A stretch of DNA of 51,453 nt from a virus, in IMG/VR virus record IMGVR_UViG_3300020195_000035, positions 1 through 51,453 of that record. One strand, written 5' to 3'. A program made the position numbers and the translations under genes. Below the pieces are notes generated by a model. It saw nothing but the letters and a program-made list of their open reading frames with translations, ran no database searches and was not told where the DNA came from. Every line of letters begins with the position of its first letter. Positions within the stretch are counted from its first letter, which is position 1. Below are positions 1 to 33,118 of this stretch, piece by piece.

Positions 1-2
1 CA

Positions 3-17
3 CCCCCCCCCCCCCCC
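3..17. repeat. Homopolymer C15 tract
   Basis: Fifteen consecutive C residues lie at the extreme left edge, four bases past the stop codon of the first leftward gene. No other homopolymer of this length was noticed. It may be an assembly or contig-end artefact, or a true G-tract on the leftward transcript. Confidence 0.9.
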
Positions 18-21
18 AATT

Positions 22-483
22 TTAATCTTCATCGGGCGGATCACACTTGGGACAACCACAATAAATGGAACCGAGAATCGGGACAACCCGATCTTCCCGT
101 TTGCATTTAACCACCGGCGCAACTTCACCACACCCTTGCAAGATGATTTCACCGTTACGCGCTAATTCTTCTGCCGGGGATTTAATTGCATAATCCATAT
201 TAGCGTACACTCGCCCGCACGATATGAGCACGCCATGATCGTCGCGCACTGTGTCGCAACTCAAAATTAAAGCGCTGGTTAGCGCGCCAATTTCTTCGGG
301 CGCAATCCACTCCCACCCGTTGCAAGTTTGATACTCAACTAATTCGATAAAAGCGCCATCGAACCCAAGTGCCGCAACCCCTTGATCTTCCACTAATTCC
401 GCCAGTTCCGCGCGGCACTCAGCATTAAGTTTGATGAGCAAGTTCCCGTTGGCAAGTTCCACGAATTCAGTAAAGCGTTGCAT
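22..483 (-). CDS. Hypothetical protein, 153 aa, cysteine-rich C-terminus
   Basis: I do not recognise the family. The protein is acidic and soluble, without signal peptide or membrane segment. Its C-terminal third holds a cluster of cysteines (CGCPKC near residue 143), which could bind a metal. The start is set by a strong Shine-Dalgarno (GGAAGGA on the minus strand, 491-497). Just upstream is a member of the phage promoter family (TTGACA, 15 bp, TATAAT, GGGAGCATAAC), so it is probably transcribed alone and early. Its stop is followed almost at once by the C15 tract at the window edge. Confidence 0.75.
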   Translation of the reverse strand: MQRFTEFVELANGNLLIKLNAECRAELAELVEDQGVAALGFDGAFIELVEYQTCNGWEWIAPEEIGALTSALILSCDTVRDDHGVLISCGRVYANMDYAIKSPAEELARNGEIILQGCGEVAPVVKCKREDRVVPILGSIYCGCPKCDPPDED

Positions 484-506
484 AGTATCATTCCTTCCGG
501 TTAAGT

Positions 507-544
507 GTTATGCTCCCATTATACTCAAAATTAAAACTTGTCAA
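507..544 (-). promoter_or_regulatory. Phage promoter family, copy 1
   Basis: On the minus strand the -35 TTGACA is at 539-544, the spacer is 15 bp, the -10 TATAAT is at 518-523, and the conserved box GGGAGCATAAC is at 507-517. The GGGA just after the -10 matches the discriminator sequence favoured by sigma region 1.2. It drives the 153-aa gene. Confidence 0.85.
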
Positions 545-547
545 GCG

Positions 548-817
548 CTACCCGGCTGTCTTTAGGGCTTCGGCATTCAAGTCCGCAACAAGCAACTGCG
601 CCTCCCGCAGCGCTTGCCCGTAAGCAGATTTTAGGCCAGCATAACGCGCGTCTACATTTTTGAATTCTTTACGCACGCCGTCATTTAGCCCGCGAACCGC
701 GTGCCACTCGCTTACGCGCGTGTCGAGTACGCGAACGTGAACCGGGCGACGATATTTTCCACCACCGGATTGTGGCGCTTTTGCAGAACGAATACTGATT
801 TTGAACGGATAAGACAT
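548..817 (-). CDS. Hypothetical protein, 89 aa, basic
   Basis: Small basic protein of unknown family, rich in Arg/Lys/Ala, with no membrane segment. A Shine-Dalgarno-like GGAAGC lies upstream of the ATG, and a family promoter lies at 842-879. Its last codons (ALKTAG, stop) and the promoter directly beyond them are copied in the opposite orientation at 4177-4206. The end of this gene plus a promoter has therefore been duplicated as a unit. The sequence shows no function. Confidence 0.7.
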   Translation of the reverse strand: MSYPFKISIRSAKAPQSGGGKYRRPVHVRVLDTRVSEWHAVRGLNDGVRKEFKNVDARYAGLKSAYGQALREAQLLVADLNAEALKTAG

Positions 818-841
818 AATGCTTCCTTTGCTTGGTTAAGT

Positions 842-879
842 GTTATGCTTCCATTATACCCAAAACTAAAACGTGTCAA
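842..879 (-). promoter_or_regulatory. Phage promoter family, copy 2
   Basis: Minus-strand TTGACA at 874-879, 15-bp spacer, TATAAT at 853-858, then the box variant GGAAGCATAAC at 842-852. It drives the 89-aa gene. Confidence 0.85.
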
Positions 880-915
880 GCGCGGCGGTTGCAAAATTAA
901 AGCAAGCAAAAGGGG

Positions 916-951
916 TTGACATTCTGAAATCTTGGATATACTTAGGGCATA
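916..951 (+). promoter_or_regulatory. Phage promoter family, copy 3 (degenerate)
   Basis: TTGACA at 916-921, 15-bp spacer, TATACT at 937-942, then a diverged box (AGGGCATAG) followed by ATTAACC, as in other copies. It is divergent from copy 2 and drives the 215-aa gene. Confidence 0.75.
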
Positions 952-974
952 GTCATTAACCGAAAGCGAGACTA

Positions 975-1622
975 ATGAATCTTAACATGGCGCTCCCATT
1001 GTCAACCCGACTTGCTAATCGCAAGGCCGGGCAAAAATACAAGAATGAAGTGTACGGCGGTTGCGCCGGAAAACTCAACAAAAGCGATAAGTGCGCTTGG
1101 TACAGTTCGCTCAAGGACGTTAAAGCCGATTATCGGTTTGTGCAGCACGCCCACAAAATTGTGCGCTTGGGCCATAACGGATGGTATGCGGACAACTTTC
1201 AAAGTGGGTTAATTTGTGGCTTCGTCGTGCGCTTACCCGGCAAGGCGGGTAAACCACGCTATCTTGCCGGGATTGAAGCAACGGAATGGGACAGCACGGC
1301 GGTATTGGCGGAGAGTTATGATGATGAGTGTGACGCCGCGCGTGCTGCCGATGGGCACGCCGAACGGTACGCGGAAGTAAGCCGGGAAGATGATTTAGAG
1401 CAATTAGTCGAGCAAGCGATTGAGGATAGGGGTGAGGAAATTACCACACTCAATACCGAAATTGCGGAATTGACCGCTGAAGTTGAGCCACTTAGCACTT
1501 GCGGCTATTTTCGCGCCGCTGCCGCACTTGAAGAATTGATTGCGGACAAGCAAGCCGAAGTCAGTAAACTTGAGAAGTCAATCAAGAAAATCACCGATGA
1601 GCCGTGGACTTTAGTGGCTTAA
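975..1622 (+). CDS. Hypothetical protein, 215 aa, C-terminal coiled coil
   Basis: No family recognised. The N-terminal 110 residues look globular. From about residue 130 the sequence is acidic and heptad-like (Leu/Ile/Glu/Lys rich, ending in a Lys-Leu-Glu-Lys-Ser-Ile-Lys-Lys stretch), which predicts a coiled coil and probable oligomerisation. The ATG follows a weak purine-rich ribosome site (GAAAGCGAG). It is the first gene of the rightward early group and is transcribed from the divergent promoter at 916. A tRNA-like fold begins 10 bases after its stop. Confidence 0.75.
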   Translation: MNLNMALPLSTRLANRKAGQKYKNEVYGGCAGKLNKSDKCAWYSSLKDVKADYRFVQHAHKIVRLGHNGWYADNFQSGLICGFVVRLPGKAGKPRYLAGIEATEWDSTAVLAESYDDECDAARAADGHAERYAEVSREDDLEQLVEQAIEDRGEEITTLNTEIAELTAEVEPLSTCGYFRAAAALEELIADKQAEVSKLEKSIKKITDEPWTLVA

Positions 1623-1632
1623 ACTTAGGCTG

Positions 1633-1685
1633 ATGCGCTGCCCGGTTTGGCGGGATATAACGCAGTTCGATTCTGCGCAGCGCAT
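1633..1685 (+). ncRNA. tRNA-like fold without anticodon arm
   Basis: An 8-bp acceptor-like stem (ATGCGCTG 1633-1640 with CAGCGCAT 1678-1685) encloses a 4-bp D-arm-like hairpin (1641-1654) and a perfect T-arm (1661-1677). The T-arm has a 5-bp stem and loop TTCGATT, with the invariant T54 T55 C56, purine 57, A58 and C61. Only six bases separate the two arms, so there is no room for an anticodon stem-loop, and no CCA is encoded. It sits in the mRNA between two genes. It could be an RNase P/Z processing signal, a tRNA remnant or a tRNA mimic. Confidence 0.5.
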
Positions 1686-1687
1686 TT

Positions 1688-1744
1688 ATGAACGACAAAG
1701 ACAAATTACAATGTGCGCGTAAACGGATTGAAGGAACAGTATGA
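1688..1744 (+). CDS. Possible 18-aa leader peptide
   Basis: A short open frame starts three bases after the tRNA-like fold and ends in TGA inside the ATGA that starts the next gene. The overlap suggests translational coupling or a leader peptide. There is no clear ribosome site of its own, because the fold occupies that position. Support comes from layout only. Confidence 0.3.
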   Translation: MNDKDKLQCARKRIEGTV

Positions 1745-1953
1745 ACACGCTCAACCAGACACTTGCGGAAATTTCACGCAAGAACGGCATCACGATTCCC
1801 CGCGAGCATTCCCCCGCTTGGCGGGTCTGGCTACGCCAATGCCAGCGCTACGTTGCGGACGGGGCAACCGGGACAACCTATAGCCGGGACATGAAACGCG
1901 CAGCTCGCGGGGAACGTCCCCGCCGGGACAACCGGGACAACCGGGACAATTAA
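1741..1953 (+). CDS. Hypothetical protein, 70 aa, Arg-rich
   Basis: Small basic protein of unknown family. A good ribosome site (GAAGGAA) precedes the ATG. The C-terminus is low complexity, with three Arg-Asp-Asn repeats encoded by a tandem CCGGGACAA motif. The stop is followed directly by the next family promoter, so the gene ends one transcription unit. The N-terminal half (TLAEISRKNGITIP) could be a short helix-turn-helix but is too brief to call. Confidence 0.6.
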   Translation: MNTLNQTLAEISRKNGITIPREHSPAWRVWLRQCQRYVADGATGTTYSRDMKRAARGERPRRDNRDNRDN

Positions 1954-1957
1954 GCGC

Positions 1958-1995
1958 TTGACATTATGCGCGTCTGTGTATAATGGGAGCATAAC
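1958..1995 (+). promoter_or_regulatory. Phage promoter family, copy 4
   Basis: TTGACA at 1958-1963, 15-bp spacer, TATAAT at 1979-1984, GGGAGCATAAC at 1985-1995. About 47 bp are identical to the copy at 5773, which points to recent duplication. It drives the 68-aa gene. Confidence 0.9.
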
Positions 1996-2026
1996 AGTTA
2001 ACCAAACAGGAAAGTGAGTTGAGACC

Positions 2027-2233
2027 ATGACCTACGCAGAAGCAACGGAAAAAATGAACACGCATAAGGGCCGGGACGTTCAATACCACCGTCCGCCAAC
2101 TGCTGGCGAGATTAAGTTCGGGTATGGCACGACTCACTACCGCACGTTCCCGTTTGAACAATGCGTTCACAAAGGTACTCGCGTGCTGAAAAAATGGTTC
2201 GTTGCCGATAACGGATTGCGGTATTATTGCTAG
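2027..2233 (+). CDS. Hypothetical protein, 68 aa
   Basis: Unknown family, rich in aromatic and basic residues, soluble. The ATG follows AGGAAAGTGAG and the promoter at 1958. Nine bases after its stop begins a 42-bp direct repeat that copies the 3' end of the following gene. The junction downstream of this gene therefore looks like a recombination scar, and its own 3' end may have been altered by it. Confidence 0.65.
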   Translation: MTYAEATEKMNTHKGRDVQYHRPPTAGEIKFGYGTTHYRTFPFEQCVHKGTRVLKKWFVADNGLRYYC

Positions 2234-2242
2234 TTGCGGGCC

Positions 2243-2284
2243 GACGTTGAGTTGTTGGAATGGGCAAGCGTGCCCGAAGGGACA
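2243..2284 (+). repeat. 42-bp direct repeat, copy A
   Basis: 40 of 42 bases match copy B at 2580-2621. In one frame it reads DVELLEWASVPEGT, the C-terminal motif of the next gene, but here it is not attached to a gene body. Its end supplies the ribosome site (GAAGGGA) for the gene starting at 2289. Confidence 0.9.
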
Positions 2285-2288
2285 CAGT

Positions 2289-2627
2289 ATGAAAGAGTCT
2301 ACAATGATCCGGGGACAACTTCGGGACACCCGCGCCATAATGAAAATGCAGCACCGGATAGCGGGCGGTATCCGGCACGGCGGGCATTCTCGCGAGAGTA
2401 TGCGCTTAAACGAGCGTATGTTTATGTTGGAAACGCGACTAAAAGTTGCGCTCAACAAAGAGAAGCACGCCACGATCAAAAGCCGGTTGGAATATCTTCG
2501 TGGTGAAATCCGCGCAGAGCGCCTTAGTTACGGCGAGATTAGCGAATTGCACTCTCTTGTTCCGTTTATCGACAAAAATGACGTTGAGTTGTTGGAATGG
2601 GCGGGCGTGCCCGAAGGGACAGCGTGA
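2289..2627 (+). CDS. Hypothetical helical phage protein, 112 aa
   Basis: All-helical protein that ends in a motif seen in many phage small hypotheticals, as far as I recall (YGEISELHSLVPFID followed by DVELLEWAGVPE). I know no function for it. I chose the ATG at 2289 because GAAGGGA precedes it at good distance; upstream in-frame ATGs run through the preceding gene. Its stop overlaps the GTG of the next gene. The last 14 residues are encoded by direct-repeat copy B. Confidence 0.65.
   Translation: MKESTMIRGQLRDTRAIMKMQHRIAGGIRHGGHSRESMRLNERMFMLETRLKVALNKEKHATIKSRLEYLRGEIRAERLSYGEISELHSLVPFIDKNDVELLEWAGVPEGTA
2580..2621 (+). repeat. 42-bp direct repeat, copy B
   Basis: This is the in-gene copy of the repeat at 2243-2284. 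It encodes the end of the 112-aa protein and carries the ribosome site GAAGGGA for the following GTG-start gene. Confidence 0.9.
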
Positions 2628-2932
2628 GACAGCGCCACACTAAACAACCGCCCCGCGCACACGGACAACGTACCCACGACTCGCGGCTTATATCCGTGAA
2701 GCACGAGCGCATAATCGGGAAGTTCGACACCGAAAAAACCGCCGCGAAGTATGCGCGAATACTAGCGGTTAGCGTTCGGGACAAACAGTACGTCTTTTCG
2801 TCGTATGACCGCGACCTGATTGTTGAGACACCCACACGGTTAACCCCTACACAGTGGGGACATCTTTACTTTGTCATCATGGGAATGCACTACGTTTTAG
2901 GCGGGCTACTTGATCCAAGCCGGGACATTTAG
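2624..2932 (+). CDS. Hypothetical protein, 102 aa, basic N-terminus
   Basis: Unknown family. The GTG start overlaps the previous stop (GTGA) and follows GAAGGGA, giving coupled translation. The first 20 residues are very basic (Arg/His/Lys). The rest is globular, with a C-terminal hydrophobic stretch (YFVIMGMHYVLGGLL) that could be a buried helix rather than a membrane span. Its stop lies two bases before the next family promoter. Confidence 0.55.
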   Translation: MRQRHTKQPPRAHGQRTHDSRLISVKHERIIGKFDTEKTAAKYARILAVSVRDKQYVFSSYDRDLIVETPTRLTPTQWGHLYFVIMGMHYVLGGLLDPSRDI

Positions 2933-2935
2933 CGC

Positions 2936-2971
2936 TTGACAACCCAATGGTTTGCGTATAATGGGAGCATA
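2936..2971 (+). promoter_or_regulatory. Phage promoter family, copy 5 (fused to ATG)
   Basis: TTGACA at 2936-2941, 15-bp spacer, TATAAT at 2957-2962, GGGAGCATA at 2963-2971, immediately followed by ATG. With +1 seven bases after the -10, the transcript would begin at about 2969 and carry almost no leader. Confidence 0.85.
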
Positions 2972-3172
2972 ATGAAACACCGATACGGAATGAAAACCCA
3001 AGCGTTTATGGTTGAGGCTGAATTTTCTACAGCCGGAAAAAAGTACCTAGAACAATTGCGTAAAAGTGATGCGCGATTCAAACACTGCCGGATCAGGGAT
3101 TGGCTTCAAGCAACTCCCAAGTTGTTGCCCCTGCGTGCTGTAATGGCAATCGGGCATGATATGTGCGCTTAA
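2972..3172 (+). CDS. Hypothetical protein, 66 aa, likely leaderless mRNA
   Basis: Small basic protein of unknown family. The ATG abuts the promoter box, leaving a predicted leader of about three bases. The only purine-rich stretch (GGGAG) would lie upstream of the transcription start. A TTG 36 bases upstream is the promoter -35 itself and is rejected as a start. A terminator-like hairpin follows the stop, so this is a one-gene transcript. Confidence 0.6.
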   Translation: MKHRYGMKTQAFMVEAEFSTAGKKYLEQLRKSDARFKHCRIRDWLQATPKLLPLRAVMAIGHDMCA

Positions 3173-3174
3173 AC

Positions 3175-3201
3175 AGTTGGATGCCCCAACTCACAATTTT
3201 T
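3175..3201 (+). terminator. Intrinsic terminator-like hairpin
   Basis: AGTTGG (3175-3180) pairs with CCAACT (3186-3191) across a 5-base loop, followed by CACAATTTTT. It ends the short transcript from 2936. The stem is only 6 bp, so strength is uncertain. Confidence 0.5.
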
Positions 3202-3227
3202 CCAACCGAAGCTGAATGGGAGCAACC

Positions 3228-3692
3228 ATGAAATCAAAGTATGACATCCAAGCCGAAGAATTCTTGACATCCACCGGGACAACCTTTCTGGCAACACTAT
3301 ATCCCGCCCCCATGCAGACCCCGCCCTCATGGGCAAAGCCGGGTAGAACCATAGCAGATGCCCCGACGTGGGGACTGCGGTACTGTGTCACGCTGACGCG
3401 CGGGCTGAAGGAAATCAAGTTCGACTACTGGGGATCGTTTGCCGAACGATCCAAGCTGTCAAATGTGAATTTTTACAGCCAACCCAATTTGGCCCGTGCG
3501 AAGGCTTATGACGTACTCACCTGCGCGCCAAAGTTCGTGCCCGACACGTTCACGGACTTCTGCGCAGAATACGGGTACTGTGAGGATAGCCGCCAAGCGC
3601 TCGCCACGTTCGAGAGCGAGCGTAAATTGTGGGAAAAGTTTGCGGGGGTATTTAGTGCCGAAGAACTCGAACGCTTGGCGGAAATTCAGTAG
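3228..3692 (+). CDS. Conserved phage/plasmid hypothetical protein, 154 aa
   Basis: The C-terminal half carries a pattern that I recall from many phage and plasmid hypotheticals: AYDVLTC, then FTDFCAEYGYCEDSR, then a helix ending FSAEELERLAEI. No biochemical role is known to me. I preferred the second ATG because GGGAG lies five bases before it. An upstream ATG at 3216 overlaps that ribosome site. The region before it (GAATGGGAGCAACC) looks like a decayed promoter-family box without a -35. Confidence 0.65.
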   Translation: MKSKYDIQAEEFLTSTGTTFLATLYPAPMQTPPSWAKPGRTIADAPTWGLRYCVTLTRGLKEIKFDYWGSFAERSKLSNVNFYSQPNLARAKAYDVLTCAPKFVPDTFTDFCAEYGYCEDSRQALATFESERKLWEKFAGVFSAEELERLAEIQ

Positions 3693-3702
3693 CATTTAGC
3701 GC

Positions 3703-3740
3703 TTGACAACCTTCAATCTTGGGTATAATGGGAGCATAAC
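3703..3740 (+). promoter_or_regulatory. Phage promoter family, copy 6
   Basis: TTGACA at 3703-3708, 15-bp spacer, TATAAT at 3724-3729, GGGAGCATAAC at 3730-3740. It is followed by the same ACTTAACCGGAAGGAA leader as copy 1. It drives the 113-aa gene. Confidence 0.9.
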
Positions 3741-3766
3741 ACTTAACCGGAAGGAACGTAGTAAAC

Positions 3767-4108
3767 ATGAACATGAATCAAGGCGACATCCAAACGGCTG
3801 CTTCCAATCGTCACGATTGCCCGAACGTCCGCAAGGGCTTTCGTTTGCTGCACAGTCTTTTAATGGCCGTGAATAGCCAGTCGGATGGTTGGGCATATTG
3901 GTCTGCCCCTAGCAAAGCCGCCGATAAGCTCATGACGCTTCTGAGGACTGCTGGCAACATTTGGTATGACACCAGCGGCACGATTACCGCCTCTGAACTC
4001 AAGAGTGCCATTTCCCCGATCCGGCGGATGGTGACCTTACAGACTGAGAAACAGAAGCAGTACGGGAACACTTTTGTGTTCGACGTGGATGCCGCCCTGA
4101 GCAACTAG
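3767..4108 (+). CDS. Hypothetical protein, 113 aa
   Basis: Unknown family, mixed alpha/beta by eye, no membrane segment and no cysteine cluster. The ATG follows GGAAGGAA in a leader nearly identical to that of the 153-aa gene at the left edge. It is transcribed from the promoter at 3703. The roughly 90 bases downstream hold a 24-codon remnant and then the next promoter. Confidence 0.65.
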   Translation: MNMNQGDIQTAASNRHDCPNVRKGFRLLHSLLMAVNSQSDGWAYWSAPSKAADKLMTLLRTAGNIWYDTSGTITASELKSAISPIRRMVTLQTEKQKQYGNTFVFDVDAALSN

Positions 4109-4122
4109 GTTACCACAGTGAT

Positions 4123-4197
4123 ATGACAGAAGCGAATGGGCTGGCTCTGCGCCATCCACGCCGAAGGATAGAAAACGCCCTAAAGACAGCCGGGTAG
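4123..4197 (+). pseudogene. 24-codon remnant ending in ALKTAG
   Basis: A short ATG frame whose last six codons and stop, together with the promoter that follows, copy the 3' end of the leftward 89-aa gene and its adjoining bases (548-575, opposite orientation). The first 18 codons do not match that gene. I read this as a leftover from duplication of a gene-end plus promoter cassette, not a functional gene. Confidence 0.45.
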
Positions 4198-4200
4198 CGC

Positions 4201-4236
4201 TTGACACGTTTTAATTTTGAGTAGAATGGGAGCATA
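4201..4236 (+). promoter_or_regulatory. Phage promoter family, copy 7 (fused to ATG)
   Basis: TTGACA at 4201-4206, 15-bp spacer, TAGAAT at 4222-4227, GGGAGCATA at 4228-4236, then ATG at 4237. The predicted +1 is the A at 4234, so the mRNA is nearly leaderless. Confidence 0.85.
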
Positions 4237-4491
4237 ATGAAATGCTGTTTATGCAAACGCTCGATCAATCCCCGAAAAGACAGACACTTTCATGCGACGT
4301 TTTGCAACTACCTTACGCAGACTTATAAGAAACTCGCGCATTGTGCGAAGTGTGACACTGACGCCACCCAAATGAAGTTGTGGGCGGCACTCTATGAGGC
4401 CGCTGAAGCTAAGAGCGCGGCAACCCGTGACTTATGGGAAAAGCAACGCATTTTACGGGAACAGCAAAACTTGGCACTTGACACGTTTTAA
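4237..4491 (+). CDS. Small zinc-finger-like protein, 84 aa
   Basis: The N-terminal half has CxxC (CLCK, residues 4-7), a histidine/cysteine group (HFHATFC) and a second CxxC (CAKC). This is consistent with a zinc ribbon or treble clef. The C-terminal half is a charged helix. There is no ribosome site; the start codon touches the promoter box, so leaderless translation is likely. The stop codon lies inside the spacer of the next promoter, whose -35 encodes part of the last residues (LDTF). Confidence 0.6.
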   Translation: MKCCLCKRSINPRKDRHFHATFCNYLTQTYKKLAHCAKCDTDATQMKLWAALYEAAEAKSAATRDLWEKQRILREQQNLALDTF

Positions 4492-4515
4492 TTTTGAGTA
4501 GAATGGGAGCATAAC
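4478..4515 (+). promoter_or_regulatory. Phage promoter family, copy 8
   Basis: TTGACA at 4478-4483, 15-bp spacer, TAGAAT at 4499-4504, GGGAGCATAAC at 4505-4515. It overlaps the end of the zinc-finger-like gene. A small hairpin (GTGCCG 4561-4566 with CGGCAC 4576-4581) lies in the roughly 80-base leader before the DUF932 gene. Confidence 0.85.
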
Positions 4516-4595
4516 CAATCGGGTTTATGTGAATCCGGTTGAGTTATGCAAAGCTGCCTTGTGCCGGGCCTTGTACGGCACATCGGAGAATCAGA

Positions 4596-5693
4596 ATGAG
4601 TAACGTACTTACCGCCGCGTCGCGCCAATGGTTCAGTCGTTCCGATGATGAGCGTTTCCTCACGCTTGAATCGCTTCGGGACAGTGTGGCGAAACGGCGA
4701 AACGAAAGTTGGACAGCCACCCCGAAAGCCAGTGACTTGCGGGTTGTGGCGGGACAGGATAACGCCCTATCCGTGGAAGTCTTTGACCCGTCTATCGGGG
4801 ATCGTCGAATGCTCGCGCCGACCAACTTGGCGTTCGGGCAACTGGCGACTTATGCCAAAGCCCCGGCAGGGTATCTTCGCCAGCTTCCGGCAGAGTTAGC
4901 CGCGATCAACCTGCAATACGGCCTTGAGCACCGGGCGATCCGGGATGAGGCTCTTGTGCTCGCCCACAGCAACGGGGACAACTCCCTGCGCGCTATGACC
5001 AGCACAAGCTACGGGCGAATCTGGGATCAGCAAGTGGTTGAGTCGGTTATGCAAGTCAATTCGGAAGGCCGGTGGAAGATTCCGGCGGCATCCTACGCGA
5101 CAGCCAACCCCAAGCGCGCCACAACCCTATACGCCAGTGACCGGGACATCTTTATTTTTCTGGTCGATGACGCTCACCCCATTGAAGTGCCGGGTGAAAA
5201 GGAACCCTTGTTCCGGGGTTTCTACACTTGGAACAGTGAAGTCGGCGCGGGCGTGTTTGGTATCGCCACGTTCCTTTATCGGTACGTTTGTGACAATAGG
5301 ATGATTTGGGGGGCTACGCAAGTGAAAGAATTGCGTATTCGACACACCGGCGGCGCGCCGGAACGCTTCGCTTACGAAGGCAGTAAATACCTTCACCAGT
5401 ACAGCAACGAAAGCCCTACAGCGCTCGTCAATCAGATCACGGCGGCAAAGCGCTTTGAGAGTGATGAAATGCAGGGTGATGCGGGTATTTCCAAGTGGCT
5501 GCAAAAGCGCGGCTTCAGCAAGGCGGTGGCTGTGGCCGCTGAGGGCAACGTAAACGCTGAAGGCGCTGGCCGATCCTTATGGGACATCATTAACGGCGTG
5601 ACCGCACACGCTCGCTCGATCCCGCACACAGATGCCCGCGTGCAACTGGAACTTGATGCGGGGCGGTTGATGAACATCGTCGCCAGCAATTAA
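4596..5693 (+). CDS. DUF932 phage/plasmid-like protein, 365 aa
   Basis: Resembles the DUF932 (phage/plasmid-like protein) family found on many phages and plasmids; its molecular role is not established. Length is typical. Family-like segments include SLRAMTSTSYGRIWD around residue 130, GFYTWNSEVGAGVFGIATF around residue 210, then YRYVCDNRMIWG and an R-x-RHTGG element. The ATG follows GGAG at 4585; a TTG 57 bases upstream lacks a ribosome site. It is the longest gene of the early cluster, has its own promoter (4478), and is followed by a strong terminator. Confidence 0.8.
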   Translation: MSNVLTAASRQWFSRSDDERFLTLESLRDSVAKRRNESWTATPKASDLRVVAGQDNALSVEVFDPSIGDRRMLAPTNLAFGQLATYAKAPAGYLRQLPAELAAINLQYGLEHRAIRDEALVLAHSNGDNSLRAMTSTSYGRIWDQQVVESVMQVNSEGRWKIPAASYATANPKRATTLYASDRDIFIFLVDDAHPIEVPGEKEPLFRGFYTWNSEVGAGVFGIATFLYRYVCDNRMIWGATQVKELRIRHTGGAPERFAYEGSKYLHQYSNESPTALVNQITAAKRFESDEMQGDAGISKWLQKRGFSKAVAVAAEGNVNAEGAGRSLWDIINGVTAHARSIPHTDARVQLELDAGRLMNIVASN

Positions 5694-5726
5694 GTGGCTA
5701 CCCGTCCGCGCGGATGGGTGAAGTAG

Positions 5727-5766
5727 CCCGGCGGGTGCAATCAAATGCCCCGCCGGGTTTTTATTT
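5727..5766 (+). terminator. Strong intrinsic terminator
   Basis: CCCGGCGGG (5727-5735) pairs perfectly with CCCGCCGGG (5749-5757), followed by TTTTTATTT. It ends the DUF932 transcript and precedes the next family promoter. Confidence 0.9.
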
Positions 5767-5772
5767 AAGGGG

Positions 5773-5810
5773 TTGACATTATGCGCGTCTGTGTATAATG
5801 GGAGCATAAC
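5773..5810 (+). promoter_or_regulatory. Phage promoter family, copy 9
   Basis: TTGACA at 5773-5778, 15-bp spacer, TATAAT at 5794-5799, GGGAGCATAAC at 5800-5810. It is identical over about 47 bp to the copy at 1958. Confidence 0.9.
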
Positions 5811-5846
5811 AGTTAACCAATACGGCGAGAGCCACAGGAGATTCAG

Positions 5847-6074
5847 ATGACGACCCAGCGGAAAAAAACGACGTATTACGTTGAGAACATTTGTGGCGGA
5901 AATGAGCAATTTTCCAGCCTTTCGCGTGCGTGCGCCGCGGCGATATCGTGGGGCAATAGGGGGACAATTGAGGACAAGAAGGGTGTTCGGCACGTCGCTC
6001 AAGATTTAGATGGCGACGGCTATCAGATTAGCGAATACGGTGCAGATGGTGACGTATTTATGGCTCGCGACTAG
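5847..6074 (+). CDS. Hypothetical protein, 75 aa
   Basis: Unknown family. It contains an acidic DLDGDGYQISE stretch near residue 53 that loosely resembles a calcium-binding EF-hand loop but lacks its exact spacing. The leader with ribosome site (CGGCGAGAGCCACAGGAG) is repeated almost exactly before the next gene, so the two genes share a duplicated 5' region. It is transcribed from the promoter at 5773. Confidence 0.6.
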   Translation: MTTQRKKTTYYVENICGGNEQFSSLSRACAAAISWGNRGTIEDKKGVRHVAQDLDGDGYQISEYGADGDVFMARD

Positions 6075-6149
6075 CGCGGGTGGGGCTTTCGGGGGGAACC
6101 GAGTCTGCCGGACGTGGACAGCAGCGGCGAGAGCCACAGGAGATTTACG

Positions 6150-6536
6150 ATGAAAACCGCATTTGGGTACAATCGAACGCAACGCCTCACAGACCTACTT
6201 GCCAGCAACGAAGTAGAGGTTAATTGGGAAGATGATTTGACCAATTCGCAAGGATGGAAAATCATCCACACCACCATCGGAAAGCGCAATTGCCTCATAC
6301 TCGACATGGGAAAATTTGGGTATGAAGCGCACCCACAAGGGGATGCGGTTTTCTGCTCCCAAGGTTATAAAAGAGGGCCGGTAGGAGAAAGTCTAAGCCT
6401 ACCGACCCCCATCGGGGAACACCTATTCTTGACGTACTTTCACTTTGCCCGCCGCAATATCGTGCAGGAAATTGCCCTTGTTGGGATCGTTCGTGCTGAC
6501 CGTTCGGACAACTTCCTTTTTCCGCTGCGCCCCTGA
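6150..6536 (+). CDS. Hypothetical protein, 128 aa, convergent overlap with scaffold gene
   Basis: Unknown family. The ATG follows ACAGGAG in a leader copied from the preceding gene. The first 75 residues look like normal coding sequence. The C-terminal 40 residues are read antisense across the end of the scaffold gene and across its terminator. The true functional end may be earlier, or the frame may have been extended by loss of a stop. No promoter precedes it; it probably shares the transcript from 5773. Confidence 0.5.
   Translation: MKTAFGYNRTQRLTDLLASNEVEVNWEDDLTNSQGWKIIHTTIGKRNCLILDMGKFGYEAHPQGDAVFCSQGYKRGPVGESLSLPTPIGEHLFLTYFHFARRNIVQEIALVGIVRADRSDNFLFPLRP
6369..6404 (-). terminator. 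Intrinsic terminator of the leftward head operon
   Basis: On the minus strand CGGTAGG and CCTACCG (6379-6385 and 6398-6404) form a 7-bp stem followed after a short G/C stretch by TTTT (6369-6372). It lies just beyond the scaffold stop, inside the convergent 128-aa frame. Confidence 0.55.
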
Positions 6537-7265
6537 TCCCGTCGCACCCCCGCCCGTGCCCTGCTCGAAAAGATAGGAATTTGTGTTGACGAACATGGTT
6601 ACATAATCTTCCACGCTCGCCTTCTCACCCTTTTCGTTCATTATGTCGTCCCGGGCCGGGACAAGATTATCCTCATCGTCGGTCGTCCAATCTGACTTGA
6701 CGATCTTGAGGATATTGACCAGAGCCTTTTCTTTGGGCTGCGCTTTATCGGTGATGGCGCTGGTTAAGCGTTGGTCGATCAGCATGTCACGGTACTTGGT
6801 TCTGTAGCTGTTTGCCGTTTCTTCGGCCTTTTTACGGCCCGTGGCCTCTGCTGCAAGTTTGGCGTCCAGATTGTCGCGCATCGCCTTCGTGCGCTTGTTC
6901 AAAACACCGTCCCAATCCCCTTTCTTAATCAACTCCCCTTCCTCAGCCTTCCCAAGATTAGTTTCCAGTTCGGACAATTCCGCTGCGCGCTCAGGTGTTA
7001 ATTCCCCGAAACCCTTCAGTGTGCCAAGCAGCGCGGCCTTTTCCCTTTCCAGCTTCTTAGCTTCGCTGCGGTATCGATCCAGATCGGCACTCAGCTTCTT
7101 GCGGCTGCCCTTGTCCGCTTCCTCATCTTCTTCGGACTTCTTGGGCGCTCCATCAACGATCAACTCAAATTCACCATCATCGTTTTCTTCGTAGAAATCG
7201 TGAAGGTGTTCAGGCACATCATTTAGTGCCTTGATCTTCACAGCCAACTTCAATTTCTTTGCCAT
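6423..7265 (-). CDS. Capsid scaffolding protein, 280 aa
   Basis: Likely internal scaffold of the procapsid. Composition is typical: highly charged, Lys/Glu/Ala rich, with a long coiled coil from about residue 45 to 160, an acidic segment before it and a Gly-rich linker near residue 240. The position after portal and MuF genes is the usual scaffold slot. GGAG lies nine bases before the ATG. Unusually, no major capsid gene follows; a terminator and the convergent early region come next. A GP20-like minor structural protein is the alternative name for this kind of protein. Confidence 0.65.
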   Translation of the reverse strand: MAKKLKLAVKIKALNDVPEHLHDFYEENDDGEFELIVDGAPKKSEEDEEADKGSRKKLSADLDRYRSEAKKLEREKAALLGTLKGFGELTPERAAELSELETNLGKAEEGELIKKGDWDGVLNKRTKAMRDNLDAKLAAEATGRKKAEETANSYRTKYRDMLIDQRLTSAITDKAQPKEKALVNILKIVKSDWTTDDEDNLVPARDDIMNEKGEKASVEDYVTMFVNTNSYLFEQGTGGGATGSGAQRKKEVVRTVSTNDPNKGNFLHDIAAGKVKVRQE

Positions 7266-10576: not shown

Positions 10577-12382
10577 CTAAACTCCCGCCGTGTTGATGAC
10601 TTCCATAACATCCTTAGTAACAGGGTATAGATAAGCGACGGGATAGGAAAAGCACGCGCACAAGTGTTCGAGTTGGCGCTGCTTGTGCAGATTTTCATGG
10701 GAAAGCTGATTCAAGTGTGAGTCCAGCTTTTTGCAATTTATATCAATGGTCAGCGTGGGGTTGCTCCCCGGTCTGACGTGAAACTTTCCGTTCACGGCGT
10801 TGTACCGATCGCGCAGATTCGGATTGGATGAAGGGGCGCAAATGTTAAATCCTGCGTTTCGGATGTACCAGAAGTCAGAGCGTCCGCCCGCACTTCGGCG
10901 ATTTCCACCCGTGGCATCCGGGTAAATGTTTTGCAGCTTACCACCGAATCGATCGCGCAACACTTGGCACAGATATTCCGTATCCGCGTTCGGAAGTTCG
11001 TACTCTTTGAAAAAGTGCATGTGGTTGCCCTGCCGCCAGAACACGGCGGCAGTCATCGGGTTTACATTGAAATCCATCCCACAACCAAGCTCACAATCTT
11101 CCGGCATTGGAAGGGATACTCTGTGGATATGCTTTTTGTAGCCGTAAAAAATCAAGCCCGTGCTCAGGTTTATGAAGTTGCCTTCAACGTAGGCTTGCTG
11201 CGCTCTATCATCCAGCGACGATTGAAGCCGTGATAGATAAATCTCTGACAGGGCTTTGTTGCTGTAGGTCGGGGCATGAACCGTGCCCACATCAAACTTC
11301 TCTTTCAGTTCCCCCTCACACAAATCGTATCCCCACCCCATTTCGGGTGTTCCAACTATGTTTATTTCCAACTTTTTGGCGCTGGGGGCGCGAACACGGG
11401 CCACCATCTGATTAAACACTTCGACGGGCATCATAAATGCTTCATCAAGTGTGGCCGCTGCCAGATTGGGGCCACGCAATGAGAGCGAGTTTTCGCCGGA
11501 CAATACATAAATCAGCGCATCCCGCCCCCGATAGTTGATTTTCAATTCGTGGGTTGTTGAGTTGTATCGCCACTTGAACTTCGGGCCTAACGCCCGCTCT
11601 TTCCCCGCAAGCAATCCCTGCAATGTCGGTATGGTTGTTTTGCGCGCAAGAGGAAAGGCGGGTGAGACAATCGCTACAGGCCACGGTGCATTTTCAAGTG
11701 CTAGTGAGATTGTGCGCTTACAGGCGGAAAACGATTTACCGCTGTTGTGATGCCAGATGCCCTGCGCTAAATAATTAGCTGGCCCCGGAACAGTCAAATC
11801 ATAAAATGTACCCGGCCCTAAGTTTTCCAGCTTTACAATGCCGCGCCATCTGCTTGTGTGAGAGTCACGGGAAGCCGTTCTGATTTGTGCGCCATTGGAA
11901 AGACAAGATAAAGGAAGCCAACCTGAGCGTGTGAGAAACTTATGCTGCTTCGTAACCGTTACCGTTTTTCCATCACTTAACGTAACCCGCCATAAGTCCG
12001 CAACACCTTTAACGAAGGGTGCCGTTGCCCACCGCACTTTTGTTTGTCCATCTTGCATTAAAGACAGAACGCGGATTGATTTTCCGATCTCAGATAATTC
12101 CTGCGTAGTTTTCTCATTCCCCGTCGTGGGATCGAGTATTAGCGTTTCCGCAGAAACGCAGCCGTACCCGCCGACGAAGCACCGTATGTAGTTGGGAAGA
12201 TTCCACCAGACGCGCTGTGGTTCCCACATGCCGCCCACTTCAATTTCGCCCGTGTCTGACATGACCGGATCAGCGGTACGCCATAGACCCACCTTACCCG
12301 ATTGCAGCTTCGGAGTAGGTTTGTCGATTGCGGACATCCATAGATCGAAGGTGTCCCGCGTTTCGCCTATTGATAATTGCAC
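10577..12382 (-). CDS. terL: Terminase large subunit with mini-intein, 601 aa (462 mature)
   Basis: Packaging motor ATPase/nuclease. Once the insert at residues 75-213 is removed, the sequence joins into a perfect Walker A loop (GGYG + SGKS). Walker B is ATLDEAF. The nuclease domain shows GMDFNVNP and IYPDATGG with the expected catalytic aspartates. GTG is the likely start; the ribosome site is weak. Activity requires protein splicing, because the intein divides the ATP-binding loop. It follows the small terminase and precedes DUF6527 and portal. Confidence 0.9.
   Translation of the reverse strand: MQLSIGETRDTFDLWMSAIDKPTPKLQSGKVGLWRTADPVMSDTGEIEVGGMWEPQRVWWNLPNYIRCFVGGYGCVSAETLILDPTTGNEKTTQELSEIGKSIRVLSLMQDGQTKVRWATAPFVKGVADLWRVTLSDGKTVTVTKQHKFLTRSGWLPLSCLSNGAQIRTASRDSHTSRWRGIVKLENLGPGTFYDLTVPGPANYLAQGIWHHNSGKSFSACKRTISLALENAPWPVAIVSPAFPLARKTTIPTLQGLLAGKERALGPKFKWRYNSTTHELKINYRGRDALIYVLSGENSLSLRGPNLAAATLDEAFMMPVEVFNQMVARVRAPSAKKLEINIVGTPEMGWGYDLCEGELKEKFDVGTVHAPTYSNKALSEIYLSRLQSSLDDRAQQAYVEGNFINLSTGLIFYGYKKHIHRVSLPMPEDCELGCGMDFNVNPMTAAVFWRQGNHMHFFKEYELPNADTEYLCQVLRDRFGGKLQNIYPDATGGNRRSAGGRSDFWYIRNAGFNICAPSSNPNLRDRYNAVNGKFHVRPGSNPTLTIDINCKKLDSHLNQLSHENLHKQRQLEHLCACFSYPVAYLYPVTKDVMEVINTAGV
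11744..12160 (-). mobile_element. Mini-intein, 139 aa, in TerL Walker A loop
   Basis: Block A begins with Cys1 (CVSAETLILD). Block B has TVTKQHKFL with the TxxH histidine. Block F reads TFYDLTVPGPANYLAQGI. The end is Trp-His-His-Asn followed by extein Ser (+1), matching the conserved penultimate His and terminal Asn. At 139 residues there is no space for a homing endonuclease, so this is a minimal splicing domain. Residues Cys1, block-B His, terminal His-Asn and +1 Ser are all present, so splicing is expected to be active. Confidence 0.9.
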
Positions 12383-18200: not shown

Positions 18201-19259
18201 TTAATCGTCGTCCTCGTCGTCCTCGTCACGGGATGGTTTCTTAGGCCGGGGCTTCTCGTCCTCGTCCTCGTCGTCCTCGTCACGGGATGGTTTCTTACGC
18301 CGGGGCTTCTCGTCCTCGTCGTCCTCGTCGTCCTCGTCACGGGATGGTTTCTTAGGCCGGGGCTTCTCGTCCTCGTCCTCGTCGTCCTCGTCACGGGATG
18401 GTTTCTTAGGCCGGGGCTTCTCGTCCTCGTCGTCCTCGTCCTCGTCGGCAGCAGCCCGCCGCTTTGCTGCACGATCTTTTACGTCCTCATCTTCCTCATC
18501 TTCGGCGTCATCGTGTTTTCCGCGCCGGGGCTTTTCGTCCTCATCCCCTTCTGCATCCTCATCATCCTTGTCACGCTTACCCCCAAACACCTGCGCAATG
18601 TGTTCCTCTTTGTAAAATTTCAGCATGGATGGCAGTGGAAATTCGGTGATCTTTTCCAACCACCGTGCAGCCCTGCCCGGCTCACTGGACAATTGGGTTT
18701 CCTCGCGCGATACAACCCATCCCGTGTAGCGTGTGTTTTTCTTGGTGCCGGTGCGCGTGAAATCCACATCATACCCACTCTCAGGATCATCAATAAAAAG
18801 CGTTTCGTTCGTCTTTTTATTGTAGGCTTGGGCCGAAATGTCCTTATCGGTTGACCACCCTAACGTCCAGACCATCGGGCCTTCCTTTTCCCGATTGCGG
18901 TCAATGACGTACACCAGCACCTTTTGCATCGGGCGCAACTTCTTTATGTAATCTTCGTCTTTGCCGGTGCGCTGCGCGCGTTTGGCCTCATCACAGATCG
19001 GGCAGCGGCCTTTCCCGTGTCGCTCCCGGCACAAATACGACCCGCGCCCACCCACTTCGTAATGCACATAAATGTCAATTCCAAAGTGCTTGCTGTTTTC
19101 CCAAGTCGGGGGCAAAAACCTTATTGTGTTCTCGCCTTCGGGCACTTTGAAGAACTTGATCCCCGGTTTCATAAAGCTGTCAAAATCTCCACCCTGTTGC
19201 TCCCGCCGCTCTTTGGCATCGCCCTCAGAACGCTTCTGATACTTGAATCTCGATTTCAC
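18201..19259 (-). CDS. gp32-like single-stranded DNA-binding protein, 352 aa
   Basis: T4 gp32-like SSB organisation. A basic N-terminus is followed by a core with a zinc-binding set His-x10-Cys-x8-Cys-x2-Cys (VHYEV ... YLCRERHGKGRCPICDEA), close to gp32 H-x12-C-x9-C-x2-C. After residue about 215 comes a very long acidic tail, longer than gp32's, built from four DEKPRPKKPSRDEDDED-type repeats. The acidic tail of gp32 binds replication partners; here it is greatly expanded. The GTG start follows AAAGGAG and overlaps the stop of a small membrane-protein gene. Confidence 0.8.
   Translation of the reverse strand: MKSRFKYQKRSEGDAKERREQQGGDFDSFMKPGIKFFKVPEGENTIRFLPPTWENSKHFGIDIYVHYEVGGRGSYLCRERHGKGRCPICDEAKRAQRTGKDEDYIKKLRPMQKVLVYVIDRNREKEGPMVWTLGWSTDKDISAQAYNKKTNETLFIDDPESGYDVDFTRTGTKKNTRYTGWVVSREETQLSSEPGRAARWLEKITEFPLPSMLKFYKEEHIAQVFGGKRDKDDEDAEGDEDEKPRRGKHDDAEDEEDEDVKDRAAKRRAAADEDEDDEDEKPRPKKPSRDEDDEDEDEKPRPKKPSRDEDDEDDEDEKPRRKKPSRDEDDEDEDEKPRPKKPSRDEDDEDDD
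18227..18445 (-). repeat. Four tandem 54-57 bp repeats in SSB tail
   Basis: Copies begin at 18227, 18281, 18338 and 18392 (spacing 54, 57, 54). Each encodes a basic KPSR core flanked by Asp/Glu runs. Length differences are whole codons, so the frame is kept. Expect copy-number variation by slippage. Confidence 0.9.
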
Positions 19260-21641: not shown

Positions 21642-24260
21642 CTATTTATTTTTGAAATCTCGCGTATCGAATGTTTTATAGGGTTTCAAGGCATACCAGT
21701 TGGGGCCAGTTTTCACTTCTGCGGTCAAAGGCACTTTCTTGGGCCACCAATCAACCCGCGGGATGGTCATGTACTTGGCCTTGACACGAATCGCTTCATC
21801 CGCCTTATCCGAAGGATAAAAACTGGATATATCATCGTGTACAAACAAGATCGGTGCGCGCCATGGTTCGTTATTGTCCTGCGCCATTTCAAACAACCTT
21901 GTCATGGCGTCCATCACCAAATCGCCCGCAGTGCCCTGCACCCCTGCGTTAATGAGTGCGTTGTGGCTCATCGGCCCGTGCCGCCTTCGGCCACTCAAGC
22001 ACGACACAAACCCATTCTTGTCGTAGCCCTCAATAATCTCCTGTTGCCATTCCCGCACACGCTGACACTGCTTCCACAGAGCACCCTGAAGATGCTCTGC
22101 ATCGGATTGCTCGATTTCCAGATAGTAGGAAATCGCGTTGATGGATGCCCCAAAGAATGAGGGAAACACAAACTCATTCTTCACGGCAGTTCGCGCTGCT
22201 TTCTTGTCCCCGTTAAATCGCTTGTCCAGCCAACCCCTGCACCGCTTGGCAATGCGCTCCATCCATTCCGTGTGAATATCATAATTTTCCAACAAGGCTT
22301 TCAGGATGAACGGGTCGTCACTCATCGCCCCGATGACGCGGTACTCCAACTGCCCCTCGTCGGCGGCAACAAAAACGTGGCCTTCAGGTGCAGGATAACA
22401 CGCTCTGATGACTGCTGTTTTTGCATTACGCAAAGGTTGGTTCGTGACGTTTGGAGAGCGCGCACTAGCGCGCCCCGTTGAGGTGTACATCAACTCATAC
22501 TCAGGATGGATGCGTTTGTCGGGCCACACGTTTGACTGTTTGGCGTGCTCGTCCAGTGGCAGCAAGTAGGTGCTTCTGATCTTCTGCGCTTTGCGTAGCG
22601 CGAGCACATTCAGCGCAAACTTCGTGCCGATCTTAGTCAGCACTTCTTCTTCAACCGAACACTTTGCTTTCTTAGTTCCAGTGGCCGGGGTGACGATGAC
22701 TTCCTTACGATTCTTGATCTCCAAAAACAGCTTCACCATTTGAGGATTACTATCAGGATTAAATGATTCGTTGAATCGCTCCTGATACTCGGCAACCACA
22801 CTGCTACTCATCACCTTTTCCAGCCCGGCCTTGATCTCTGCTTCGTATTCCCGCAACATCTCTACCTGAACCGTAAAGTCAACGGGCATCCCCATCAATT
22901 GAGCACTCACGAAGGGGGCAACGCGCTTGAGATGGAATCTGTAAAAATCGTAGAGCTTGGCTTCAATCAGCCTGTTTTTCAAAATGCGATCCAGCTTGTG
23001 CTCATACTTACAATCCAGCGCATTATACCGACACACATCCCCAACCGGCTCTGATGATAACCGCGTCACATCGACGTTGCTGAAGTCTTTCAGGGGCAAG
23101 CCTAGATTCTCACTCGCCACAAATTGAAGCCGCAAACTGCCCTTGCGCTCGTCCAGCGCATAAGCCTTGACGAGCGTATCATCCCAATTACTTTTGCCAA
23201 GAAGTAACCAGCCATAGCGGTGAGCCAGCCATTCCAACTCAAACTTCAAATTATGCGCAATGAACCGGCCCGTGTAGGTAAACAGTAGTTTTCTAAATGC
23301 CTTATCCAACCACGCTCGGTTTTCCTCACTCCATTCTGCGCCGGGATGCTCGAACGCAATACCGATTGATCGTTTGTAGGTGCCGATTCCAATTGTGAGT
23401 ATTTTCGAGTCCGTGTGATATGGGCGGATGTGGTTTGTTTCCAGATCAACGGCAAGCCGCTTTTGAGAATAAGCCCATTCAAAAAACGCACGCACTTTCT
23501 CAATGTCCTTATCCCCCGTAGCCAGCGTGATCCCATCTTCCATTGTTTCGATGGCTTCGATCTCCGGGTCGGGCAACTCATCGACCCGATCAAACAACGT
23601 AAATAAATCCCGACGAAAAAAGCTGTGGTGCTCTTTGCCGGGAATTTTATCCTTCCCCTTTTCCTTGTCTGTATCCTCTTTCATTCTGCGCAAAATCATC
23701 CGCACGTCATTGACGGGATAAACCCAACACTCGTAATCCTGAATACGAACCGGAAAGAAACGCCCCCGGCAGATGTCCAAGCTGATCTTACTTGCGGGAA
23801 TCAACCACGACAGCGCCGTTTTTGTCACCGGCACAATGACTCTTGGGCGACTCTGTAGAATGTCCTTTTCCACCACGCCCCGAAACGCTTCTATTTCCAC
23901 GGTGGTTGGTTCGCGGTAGCCCGGCAACAGCGTGGTGACACAATTATTAAAGCGTGTGTACTGCTTGTAATCACGCGGAAGATGATCCCGAACAAACCGC
24001 CCCACCGGGCCGCCGAACGGAGCACCATCCTCATCATCCACCGCACTTGGGGCGCTGCCTAGAAGGTAAATCAGCGGGTGGTCGCTTCCCGTAGGTTTCA
24101 TCTCAGGATTATGCGCCCGCGCATTGAGTATGCCCAATGCTTTAGGCCCAAGTCTTTTCAGAGTTGCCGGATCGAACTTCTGCGCTCGCGCGCGTACTCC
24201 TTTTGGTTTTTTTAAGACGCCTTCAACCATCTCCTGCCGCGTAAAAAAACCGATGTTCAT
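21642..24260 (-). CDS. polA: Family A DNA polymerase with N-terminal UDG-like domain, 872 aa
   Basis: Residues about 60-195 resemble family 4 uracil-DNA glycosylase (GSAPSAVDDEDGAPFGG; RPRVIVPVTKTAL; VYPVNDVR), an arrangement known from SPO1 DNA polymerase; the iron-sulfur cysteines of true family 4 enzymes are not evident. The 3'-5' exonuclease shows D272-x-E274, HNLKFELEWL and Y412/D416. Polymerase motif A is D634-E-G-Q-L-E639, motif B region has K694 and SFFGAS, and motif C is H808-D-D. The ATG overlaps the clamp stop (ATGA). It is the replicative polymerase. Confidence 0.9.
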   Translation of the reverse strand: MNIGFFTRQEMVEGVLKKPKGVRARAQKFDPATLKRLGPKALGILNARAHNPEMKPTGSDHPLIYLLGSAPSAVDDEDGAPFGGPVGRFVRDHLPRDYKQYTRFNNCVTTLLPGYREPTTVEIEAFRGVVEKDILQSRPRVIVPVTKTALSWLIPASKISLDICRGRFFPVRIQDYECWVYPVNDVRMILRRMKEDTDKEKGKDKIPGKEHHSFFRRDLFTLFDRVDELPDPEIEAIETMEDGITLATGDKDIEKVRAFFEWAYSQKRLAVDLETNHIRPYHTDSKILTIGIGTYKRSIGIAFEHPGAEWSEENRAWLDKAFRKLLFTYTGRFIAHNLKFELEWLAHRYGWLLLGKSNWDDTLVKAYALDERKGSLRLQFVASENLGLPLKDFSNVDVTRLSSEPVGDVCRYNALDCKYEHKLDRILKNRLIEAKLYDFYRFHLKRVAPFVSAQLMGMPVDFTVQVEMLREYEAEIKAGLEKVMSSSVVAEYQERFNESFNPDSNPQMVKLFLEIKNRKEVIVTPATGTKKAKCSVEEEVLTKIGTKFALNVLALRKAQKIRSTYLLPLDEHAKQSNVWPDKRIHPEYELMYTSTGRASARSPNVTNQPLRNAKTAVIRACYPAPEGHVFVAADEGQLEYRVIGAMSDDPFILKALLENYDIHTEWMERIAKRCRGWLDKRFNGDKKAARTAVKNEFVFPSFFGASINAISYYLEIEQSDAEHLQGALWKQCQRVREWQQEIIEGYDKNGFVSCLSGRRRHGPMSHNALINAGVQGTAGDLVMDAMTRLFEMAQDNNEPWRAPILFVHDDISSFYPSDKADEAIRVKAKYMTIPRVDWWPKKVPLTAEVKTGPNWYALKPYKTFDTRDFKNK

Positions 24261-26960: not shown

Positions 26961-27000
26961 TCTTTTGCTCCTTTTTGTCACACGGGAAAAGTTTAGCGGA

Positions 27001-32263: not shown

Positions 32264-32300
32264 GTATGCTTACATTCTACACAAAACTTGAATTAGTCAA
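32264..32300 (-). promoter_or_regulatory. Phage promoter family, copy 10 (fused to ATG)
   Basis: Minus-strand TTGACT at 32295-32300, exactly 15-bp spacer, TAGAAT at 32274-32279, then GTAAGCATAC at 32264-32273 and the ATG. It is far from the other nine copies and lies within the replication arm. Confidence 0.75.
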
Positions 32301-32355
32301 GCCTTTTATTTGAACTATACGCTACGGTCGGCGTCGGGGTGCGTTTTTCAGTGAA

Positions 32356-33090: not shown

Positions 33091-33118
33091 AGTATACATA
33101 GAACCTATCATTTGTCAA
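33091..33118 (-). promoter_or_regulatory. Leftward promoter of the replication arm
   Basis: Minus-strand TTGACA at 33113-33118, 16-bp spacer, TATACT at 33091-33096. It differs from the 15-bp family and lacks the GGGAGCATAAC box. It sits between the iteron array and the metallopeptidase gene. Confidence 0.7.

Follow-up and report, generated by a model that had tools for sequence, protein, structure and literature searches.

The window analyzed here is a whole virus record of the IMG/VR database (IMGVR_UViG_3300020195_000035; 51,453 bases, classed as linear), and it carries ten copies of a putative promoter that combines consensus-like -35 and -10 hexamers, a spacer of exactly 15 bp, and a conserved box downstream of the -10. 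Copies 1 to 9 lie between positions 507 and 5810 and copy 10 lies apart from them, and an open reading frame (ORF) on the same strand follows each of the ten sites. Copies are referred to below by the first position of the site, and leader lengths in nucleotides (nt) are counted from a start site that we infer, rather than map, at seven bases past the -10.

507-549 (site 518-544), minus strand: promoter copy 1, TTGACA-N15-TATAAT-GGGAGCATAAC, AGCGC upstream; predicted 28-nt leader, ATG 483 of ORF 22-483
842-884 (site 853-879), minus strand: promoter copy 2, TTGACA-N15-TATAAT-GGAAGCATAAC; predicted 29-nt leader, ATG 817 of ORF 548-817
911-953 (site 916-942), plus strand: promoter copy 3, with the most diverged box, TTGACA-N15-TATACT-TAGGGCATAGT; predicted 26-nt leader, ATG 975
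1953-1995 (site 1958-1984), plus strand: promoter copy 4, matching copy 9 exactly over 48 bp; ATG 2027
2931-2972 (site 2936-2962), plus strand: promoter copy 5, near-leaderless; predicted 3-nt leader, ATG 2972
3698-3740 (site 3703-3729), plus strand: promoter copy 6; predicted 31-nt leader, ATG 3767
4177-4237 (site 4201-4227), plus strand: promoter copy 7, -10 TAGAAT, predicted near-leaderless, ATG 4237; 61-bp block in common with copy 1, 2 mismatches
4477-4515 (site 4478-4504), plus strand: promoter copy 8, 5' of the DUF932 gene; shares an exact, abruptly bounded 38-bp block with copy 7
5768-5810 (site 5773-5799), plus strand: promoter copy 9, right after a stem-loop and a run of T; AGGAG stands before ATG 5847
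32264-32305 (site 32274-32300), minus strand: promoter copy 10, TTGACT-N15-TAGAAT-GTAAGCATAC, near-leaderless; predicted 4-nt leader, ATG 32263
975-1622, plus strand: gene behind copy 3; remote homologues occur in Pseudomonas phages and, in Caulobacter phages of the phiCbK type, within the terminal repeats
4539-5693, plus strand: DUF932-domain gene behind copy 8, starting at TTG 4539 (28-nt leader) or ATG 4596 (85-nt leader)
26442-26981, minus strand: candidate region-2-only sigma-like protein of 179 amino acids, with a weak region-2 match; not expected to read a -35
33091-33118, minus strand: comparison promoter that lacks the downstream box and has a spacer of 16 bp, upstream of an ORF starting at 33045

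The predicted transcripts would begin with AUAAC, AUAAUG, AUAGU, or AUACAUG. Their predicted leaders are 26-41 nt in six copies and 3 or 4 nt in copies 2936, 4201, and 32274, and these last three would yield nearly leaderless mRNAs. A separate observation concerns 1-6400 and 50335-51291. On a circular or permuted contig, the promoter island would be flanked by the scaffold gene (6423-7265) on one side and by the following head genes on the other, most of its own genes lying on the opposite strand. The contig terminates in a run of C and a repeat that is rich in G+C.

Invariant in all ten copies are the TTGAC of the -35, a TG two bases before the -10, the TA.A.T of the -10, and GCATA at bases 5-9 past the -10, while spacer base 4 is T in nine copies. 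An earlier note made from the sequence had also described AGCGC upstream of the -35; this is exact in five copies, the real pattern being AGSGS, with G at the second and at the fourth base in 9/10 each. Its downstream box, GGGAGCATAA, is likewise exact in seven copies only, with the variants GGAAGCATAAC, TAGGGCATAGT, and GTAAGCATACA in copies 853, 916, and 32274, respectively. The tenth copy, which the note placed at 32264, exists, but its site occupies 32274-32300 on the minus strand, and 32264 is the end of its downstream box. Conservation indeed extends past the -10, as it had stated: in addition to the invariant GCATA, bases +1 to +11 show a mean pairwise identity of 0.73 among representatives of the spacer lineages described below. 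An assignment of the -35 shifted by 1-2 bases, which would give a spacer of 16 or 17 bp, was rejected, as it would swap the invariant TTGAC for a hexamer with copy-variable first bases.

A pattern scan of the window for TTGACW-N15-TAKAMT returned exactly ten matches, compared with a mean of 0.05 and a maximum of 1 in 100 dinucleotide shuffles; on this basis chance was rejected, and the ten-copy family of the earlier note, a promoter family as judged by sequence, was confirmed. When spacers of 12-21 bp were scanned, perfect TTGACA/TATAAT pairs occurred at 15 bp only (n = 6), and allowing up to one mismatch gave nine sites at 15 bp and two at 16 bp. We also built a weight matrix from the downstream box alone (the last 4 spacer bases, the -10, and 10 downstream bases), leaving the -35 free. 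This matrix recovered the same ten sites at 16.9-32.6 bits, with the next-best match at 10.3 bits, and 17 matches of at least 9 bits in the window compared with an average of 2.6 in Markov-shuffled controls. The scores are circular, the matrix having been trained on the same ten sites, whereas the spacing was left free and so is not built in; the best -35 among spacers of 12-21 bp was at 15 bp in all ten sites. The scan, a check that had been proposed together with the family itself, revealed no weaker family member in the window and none with another spacer length. The comparison promoter at 33118 on the minus strand (TTGACA-N16-TATACT) lacks the downstream box, so not every strong-looking promoter of the window has a 15-bp spacer. 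An Rfam search gave no match. At 33152-33323, an AT-rich, partly palindromic repeat array around TATGCGCATAATGC lies between two gene blocks and may be a replication origin or control region.

The strict 15-bp spacer had been called unusual, and a comparison with other phages bears this out. As a control sample we searched viral_contigs, a collection scanned here, like genome_contigs, with the window's own record excluded, for TTGACA-N(13-20)-TATAAT-N5-CATAAC. At least 120 stretches matched; 80 loci were kept, with 89 sites, 81 of them distinct. Among the matches listed, 61 distinct sites have a 17-bp spacer, 13 have 16 bp, five have 18 bp, and only one each has 15 or 20 bp. A CATAAC start box is thus common in unrelated phage contigs, chiefly at 17 bp, so the unusual part of our family is the 15-bp lock and not the box. 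Unlike the earlier note, we consider CATAAC to be probably a general phage initiation or start-site element and not a sign that a special factor is at work. GGGAG was not seen again in the most frequent discriminators here, among the matches listed. The exact family motif gave no match in viral_contigs and none in genome_contigs, and TATAATGGGAGCATAAC was found in 5 contigs of viral_contigs, none with TTGACA at promoter distance, which we took as chance. In 80 virus loci with DUF932 relatives, 37 sites with up to one mismatch had spacers of 12 bp (1), 13 (4), 14 (2), 15 (1), 16 (7), 17 (12), 18 (5), 20 (1), and 21 bp (4), and none of four distant DUF932 loci searched for direct repeats had a comparable family. 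BLAST of one promoter copy against phages gave only matches at E ~8, to Microbacterium phages and a cyanophage. Our literature search, mainly of open papers, found no strictly 15-bp phage early promoter family, which is not proof of absence.

Families with a locked spacer do exist elsewhere. TTGACA-N15-TATAAT-N5-CATA was found in 84 stretches; of the 80 loci kept from these, only 2 had at least three 15-bp sites (TTGACA or TTGACT). Both (loci L336 and L388) come from one contig with a T4-like terminase, G010 (IMGVR_UViG_3300037851_000141; 331,849 bp), whose whole record has 63 TTGACW-TATAAT sites, 49 at 15 bp, 13 at 16 bp, and 1 at 20 bp. Beyond 260 kb, 48 of 55 sites are at 15 bp, and most family promoters stand just before a start codon. 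These early-type promoters share with ours TTGACA/T, the 15-bp spacer, TATAAT, a CATAA start box, and small genes downstream. They differ in a discriminator that starts with C, an A before the -10, a TG in the canonical place where present, no AGSGS, and a Shine-Dalgarno sequence right after the start box. In the G010 stretches examined, no island protein of the window besides DUF932 was matched at E 1e-3, and DUF932 itself, for which the best 20 matches were listed, is uninformative. A second contig, G001 (IMGVR_UViG_3300025816_000006; 162,690 bp; loci L024, L035, and L036), also has a large family, with a GCATAAC-type start box in some copies and a CATAAC-type box often present, but its spacer is mainly 16 bp (20/27, with 17 bp in 6 and 15 bp in 1) and contains a CCGATA-like element. 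The 15-bp lock is therefore found in two seemingly unrelated families, that of the window and that of G010, and its prevalence in the latter indicates that 15 bp is a workable solution for a phage.

Spacer identity groups the ten copies into about six lineages (518/853/4201/4478; 1958/5773; 916; 2936; 3703; 32274), with 12-15 of 15 spacer bases matching within a lineage and 5-10 of 15 between lineages, so the ten copies do not represent ten independent events. Copies 4201 and 4478 are identical over 38 bp, from one base before the -35 through GCATAA, with unlike flanks; copies 1958 and 5773 are identical over 48 bp starting at the -35; and the block common to 518 and 4201 includes the end of the preceding sequence. 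The far flanks of the copied blocks are near chance. Conservation is strongest in the presumed contact regions: among six lineage representatives, the mean pairwise identity is 0.94 for the -35, 0.89 for the -10, and 0.76 for AGSGS, and it is near chance in spacer bases 1-8 (0.32), upstream (0.27), and at +20 to +40 (0.34). Sharp block edges together with diverged spacers of constant length indicate a unit copied as a cassette, in which spacer length was kept while the spacer sequence drifted, and the promoter seems to have spread in this way. The strictness of the 15 bp would then be partly inheritance, and its retention in diverged lineages suggests selection.

Collectively, these data lead us to favor, at a probability of roughly 70%, a reading in which the ten sites are copied early promoter cassettes with a conserved short spacer, used by the unmodified housekeeping RNA polymerase of the host. 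As early promoters in a tailed phage, they would be read by host polymerase with a sigma-70/sigma-A type factor, and the functional unit would extend from about AGSGS before the -35 through the ATAAC start-site box. This small cassette may have been copied repeatedly, mostly within a single 6-kb island, to positions before small genes that are probably accessory, and the 15-bp spacer would be a founder trait that copying passed on and selection maintained where the spacer sequence diverged. A TTGACA-like -35 and a TATAAT-like -10 are present in 10/10 sites, as expected of a housekeeping sigma-70-type promoter. According to a part of PMC8695583, native sigma-70 promoters have spacers of 15-21 bp with an optimum of 17 bp, so the family sits at the lower edge of the native E. 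coli range and within the working range. The same source describes E. coli consensus promoters with random spacers as strongest at 17 bp, with high expression across 15-19 bp, and on this evidence no special reader is needed.

Several features speak against such a use of the host enzyme. A canonical extended -10, with TG one base upstream of the hexamer, is present in 0/10 sites and the displaced TG in 10/10, whereas the 17-bp controls have the canonical TG in 15/61 and the displaced one in 3/61 (among the matches listed); in G010 the figures are 11/37 and 0/37, respectively. AGSGS is, to our knowledge, not a known sigma element and has no known reader. Furthermore, a host sigma preferring 17 bp makes a strict 15 bp in all six lineages unexpected: at the control rate of 1/81 (among the matches listed) the probability is ~4e-12, a figure that assumes independence, which shared descent breaks.

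The earlier note had proposed a dedicated factor or operator protein as the probable reader of the sites, a proposal that the present analysis did not support. The -35, the -10, the GGGA discriminator, and the CA start are all housekeeping-sigma elements, and CATAAC occurs at 17 bp in unrelated phages. A related reading, which we consider unlikely, is that a DNA-binding activator or repressor of phage or host reads TTTTGNG-TATAAT-GGGAGCATAAC and/or AGSGS, the 15-bp spacer keeping the promoter weak by design so that its activity requires, or is governed by, this protein. Conservation does reach beyond the usual sigma contacts (AGSGS, the TG at offset 2 in 10/10, the invariant GCATA). Yet numerous unrelated phages have the CATAAC part too, with a 17-bp spacer; the block shows no palindrome by eye; and no DNA-binding regulator was recognized in the 46 ORFs scanned, a set that covers part of the ORFs and part of the libraries for each. 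T4 early promoters, as far as the relevant part of PMC2988021 describes them, are read by host polymerase and nonetheless carry extra consensus around the core elements, an over-conservation similar to that seen here.

An alternative sigma of host, phage, or mobile element that prefers short spacers appears considerably less probable. The -35 and -10 of the ten sites are the housekeeping consensus, and the window offers as candidate only ORF 26442-26981, whose region-2 match (13.5/13.0 bits) is below the Pfam cut-off of 24. Relatives of this ORF include some putative sigmas of Vibrio phages (~21% identity, E 0.006-0.01) and an Edwardsiella protein annotated as hypothetical (36%, E 7e-7), and its structure model is of low confidence (predicted local distance difference test, pLDDT, 53.7). 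By reading of the alignment it has no evident region 4 and so could hardly read a -35 such as TTGACA. G010 does encode a sigma resembling those of extracytoplasmic function (ECF), with an apparent region 4; ECF sigmas usually read a -35 of GGAAC type. A T4 gp55-type late sigma has region 2 homology and serves late TATAAATA promoters; this motif occurs only once in the window, as by chance, and a reading of the ten sites as T4-type late promoters was rejected. Sigma-N of Bacillus subtilis is encoded on a plasmid and is thus also a mobile-element sigma. It provides the precedent for a 15-bp spacer, and its promoters work well on linear DNA, according to part of PMC7824091; the window differs in its housekeeping-consensus hexamers, and no sigma-N homologue was seen there, although none was searched for. 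A phage RNA polymerase was likewise rejected as reader, the sites having the housekeeping consensus and the record giving no match to the RNA polymerase beta family (single-subunit polymerases were not searched by family model). That the host's own housekeeping sigma simply works best at about 15 bp is the least probable reading of all. In its favor, two unrelated virus records are locked to 15 bp and a third to 16 bp (20/27); against it, the window itself has the consensus-like 16-bp promoter at 33118.

Among known systems, the T4-type early promoters (sigma-70 -35/TGn/-10) are similar to our family in that many near-identical strong promoters with a consensus past the core stand before early genes and are read by host polymerase, as laid out in part of PMC2988021. 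The putative promoters of the window differ in their 15-bp spacer and in a TG one base further upstream. The PeSLs (mobile promoter/stem-loop cassettes) of T4-like phages, as part of PMC4503421 presents them (citing Arbiol 2010 and Comeau 2014), are also copied regulatory cassettes before small genes in a plastic region, and the window shares with them a repeated promoter, apparently copied as a unit before different genes and predicted to act early. When the 80 nt upstream of each of the ten copies were folded, a strong stem-loop stood out only at 5773 (z -2.2), directly upstream of that one copy in ten, and no stem-loop was part of a copied block. It is the stem-loop (terminator) that defines a PeSL. 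The exact-edged cassette is a clean case of regulatory DNA spread before probable accessory genes outside the T4 group.

Spacer length is usually regarded as a means of tuning promoters one by one. That two unrelated families keep to 15 bp, set against 17 bp in most of the comparable phage promoters sampled (among the matches listed), amounts to a natural experiment on nominally suboptimal spacing. We offer as a speculation, to which we give a low probability, that 15-bp early promoters constitute a class of their own, with independent origins in two or more phage lineages (those of the window and of G010) and a spacing tuned to linear, relaxed incoming DNA. They would be active as the DNA enters and would lose activity upon its supercoiling or circularization; in the window, the displaced TpG and AGSGS would compensate for the two missing bp. 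The activity of sigma-N on linear DNA with 15-bp spacers, as given in part of PMC7824091, suggests that a short spacer may be well matched to phage DNA that enters in relaxed form. On the other side, the portion of PMC8695583 on E. coli reports a minor effect of spacer length on the supercoiling response, non-significant after correction for strength. If such a class exists, spacer length would be a timer that needs no regulatory protein.

With regard to kin and host, Vibrio phage SSP002 has replication and head genes similar to those of the window, and Edwardsiella phage ZHS shows likeness in replication genes and in an early-type region with DUF932 (polymerase ~30% and terminase 43% in the SSP002/ZHS comparison). 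The promoter array is absent from these nearest annotated kin, which have 3 and 0 sites, respectively, at up to one mismatch; being almost without consensus promoters, they suggest that the family is not ancestral to the group. A search for close kin by DNA polymerase gave one near-identical fragment only (L019), which does not cover the island. Bacterial DUF932 relatives (42-46% identity) were alphaproteobacterial or titled only Proteobacteria in 80/80 kept loci, an identity too distant to name a host. The spacer test in bacteria found 3 perfect pairs in eight alphaproteobacterial genomes and 2 sites in 80 genome loci, too few to judge.

Some further features of the window were noted. The gene at 21642-24260 apparently encodes a fusion: in its family A DNA polymerase, residues 57-196 of the N-terminal part match the Pfam family UDG (uracil-DNA glycosylase). 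The terminase large subunit (10577-12382) has an intein-splicing-like match, below the Pfam cut-off, just before the terminase domain, which suggests an inserted or residual intein. Finally, 54-bp tandem repeats occupy 18208-18446 within the gene for a gp32-like single-strand binding protein.

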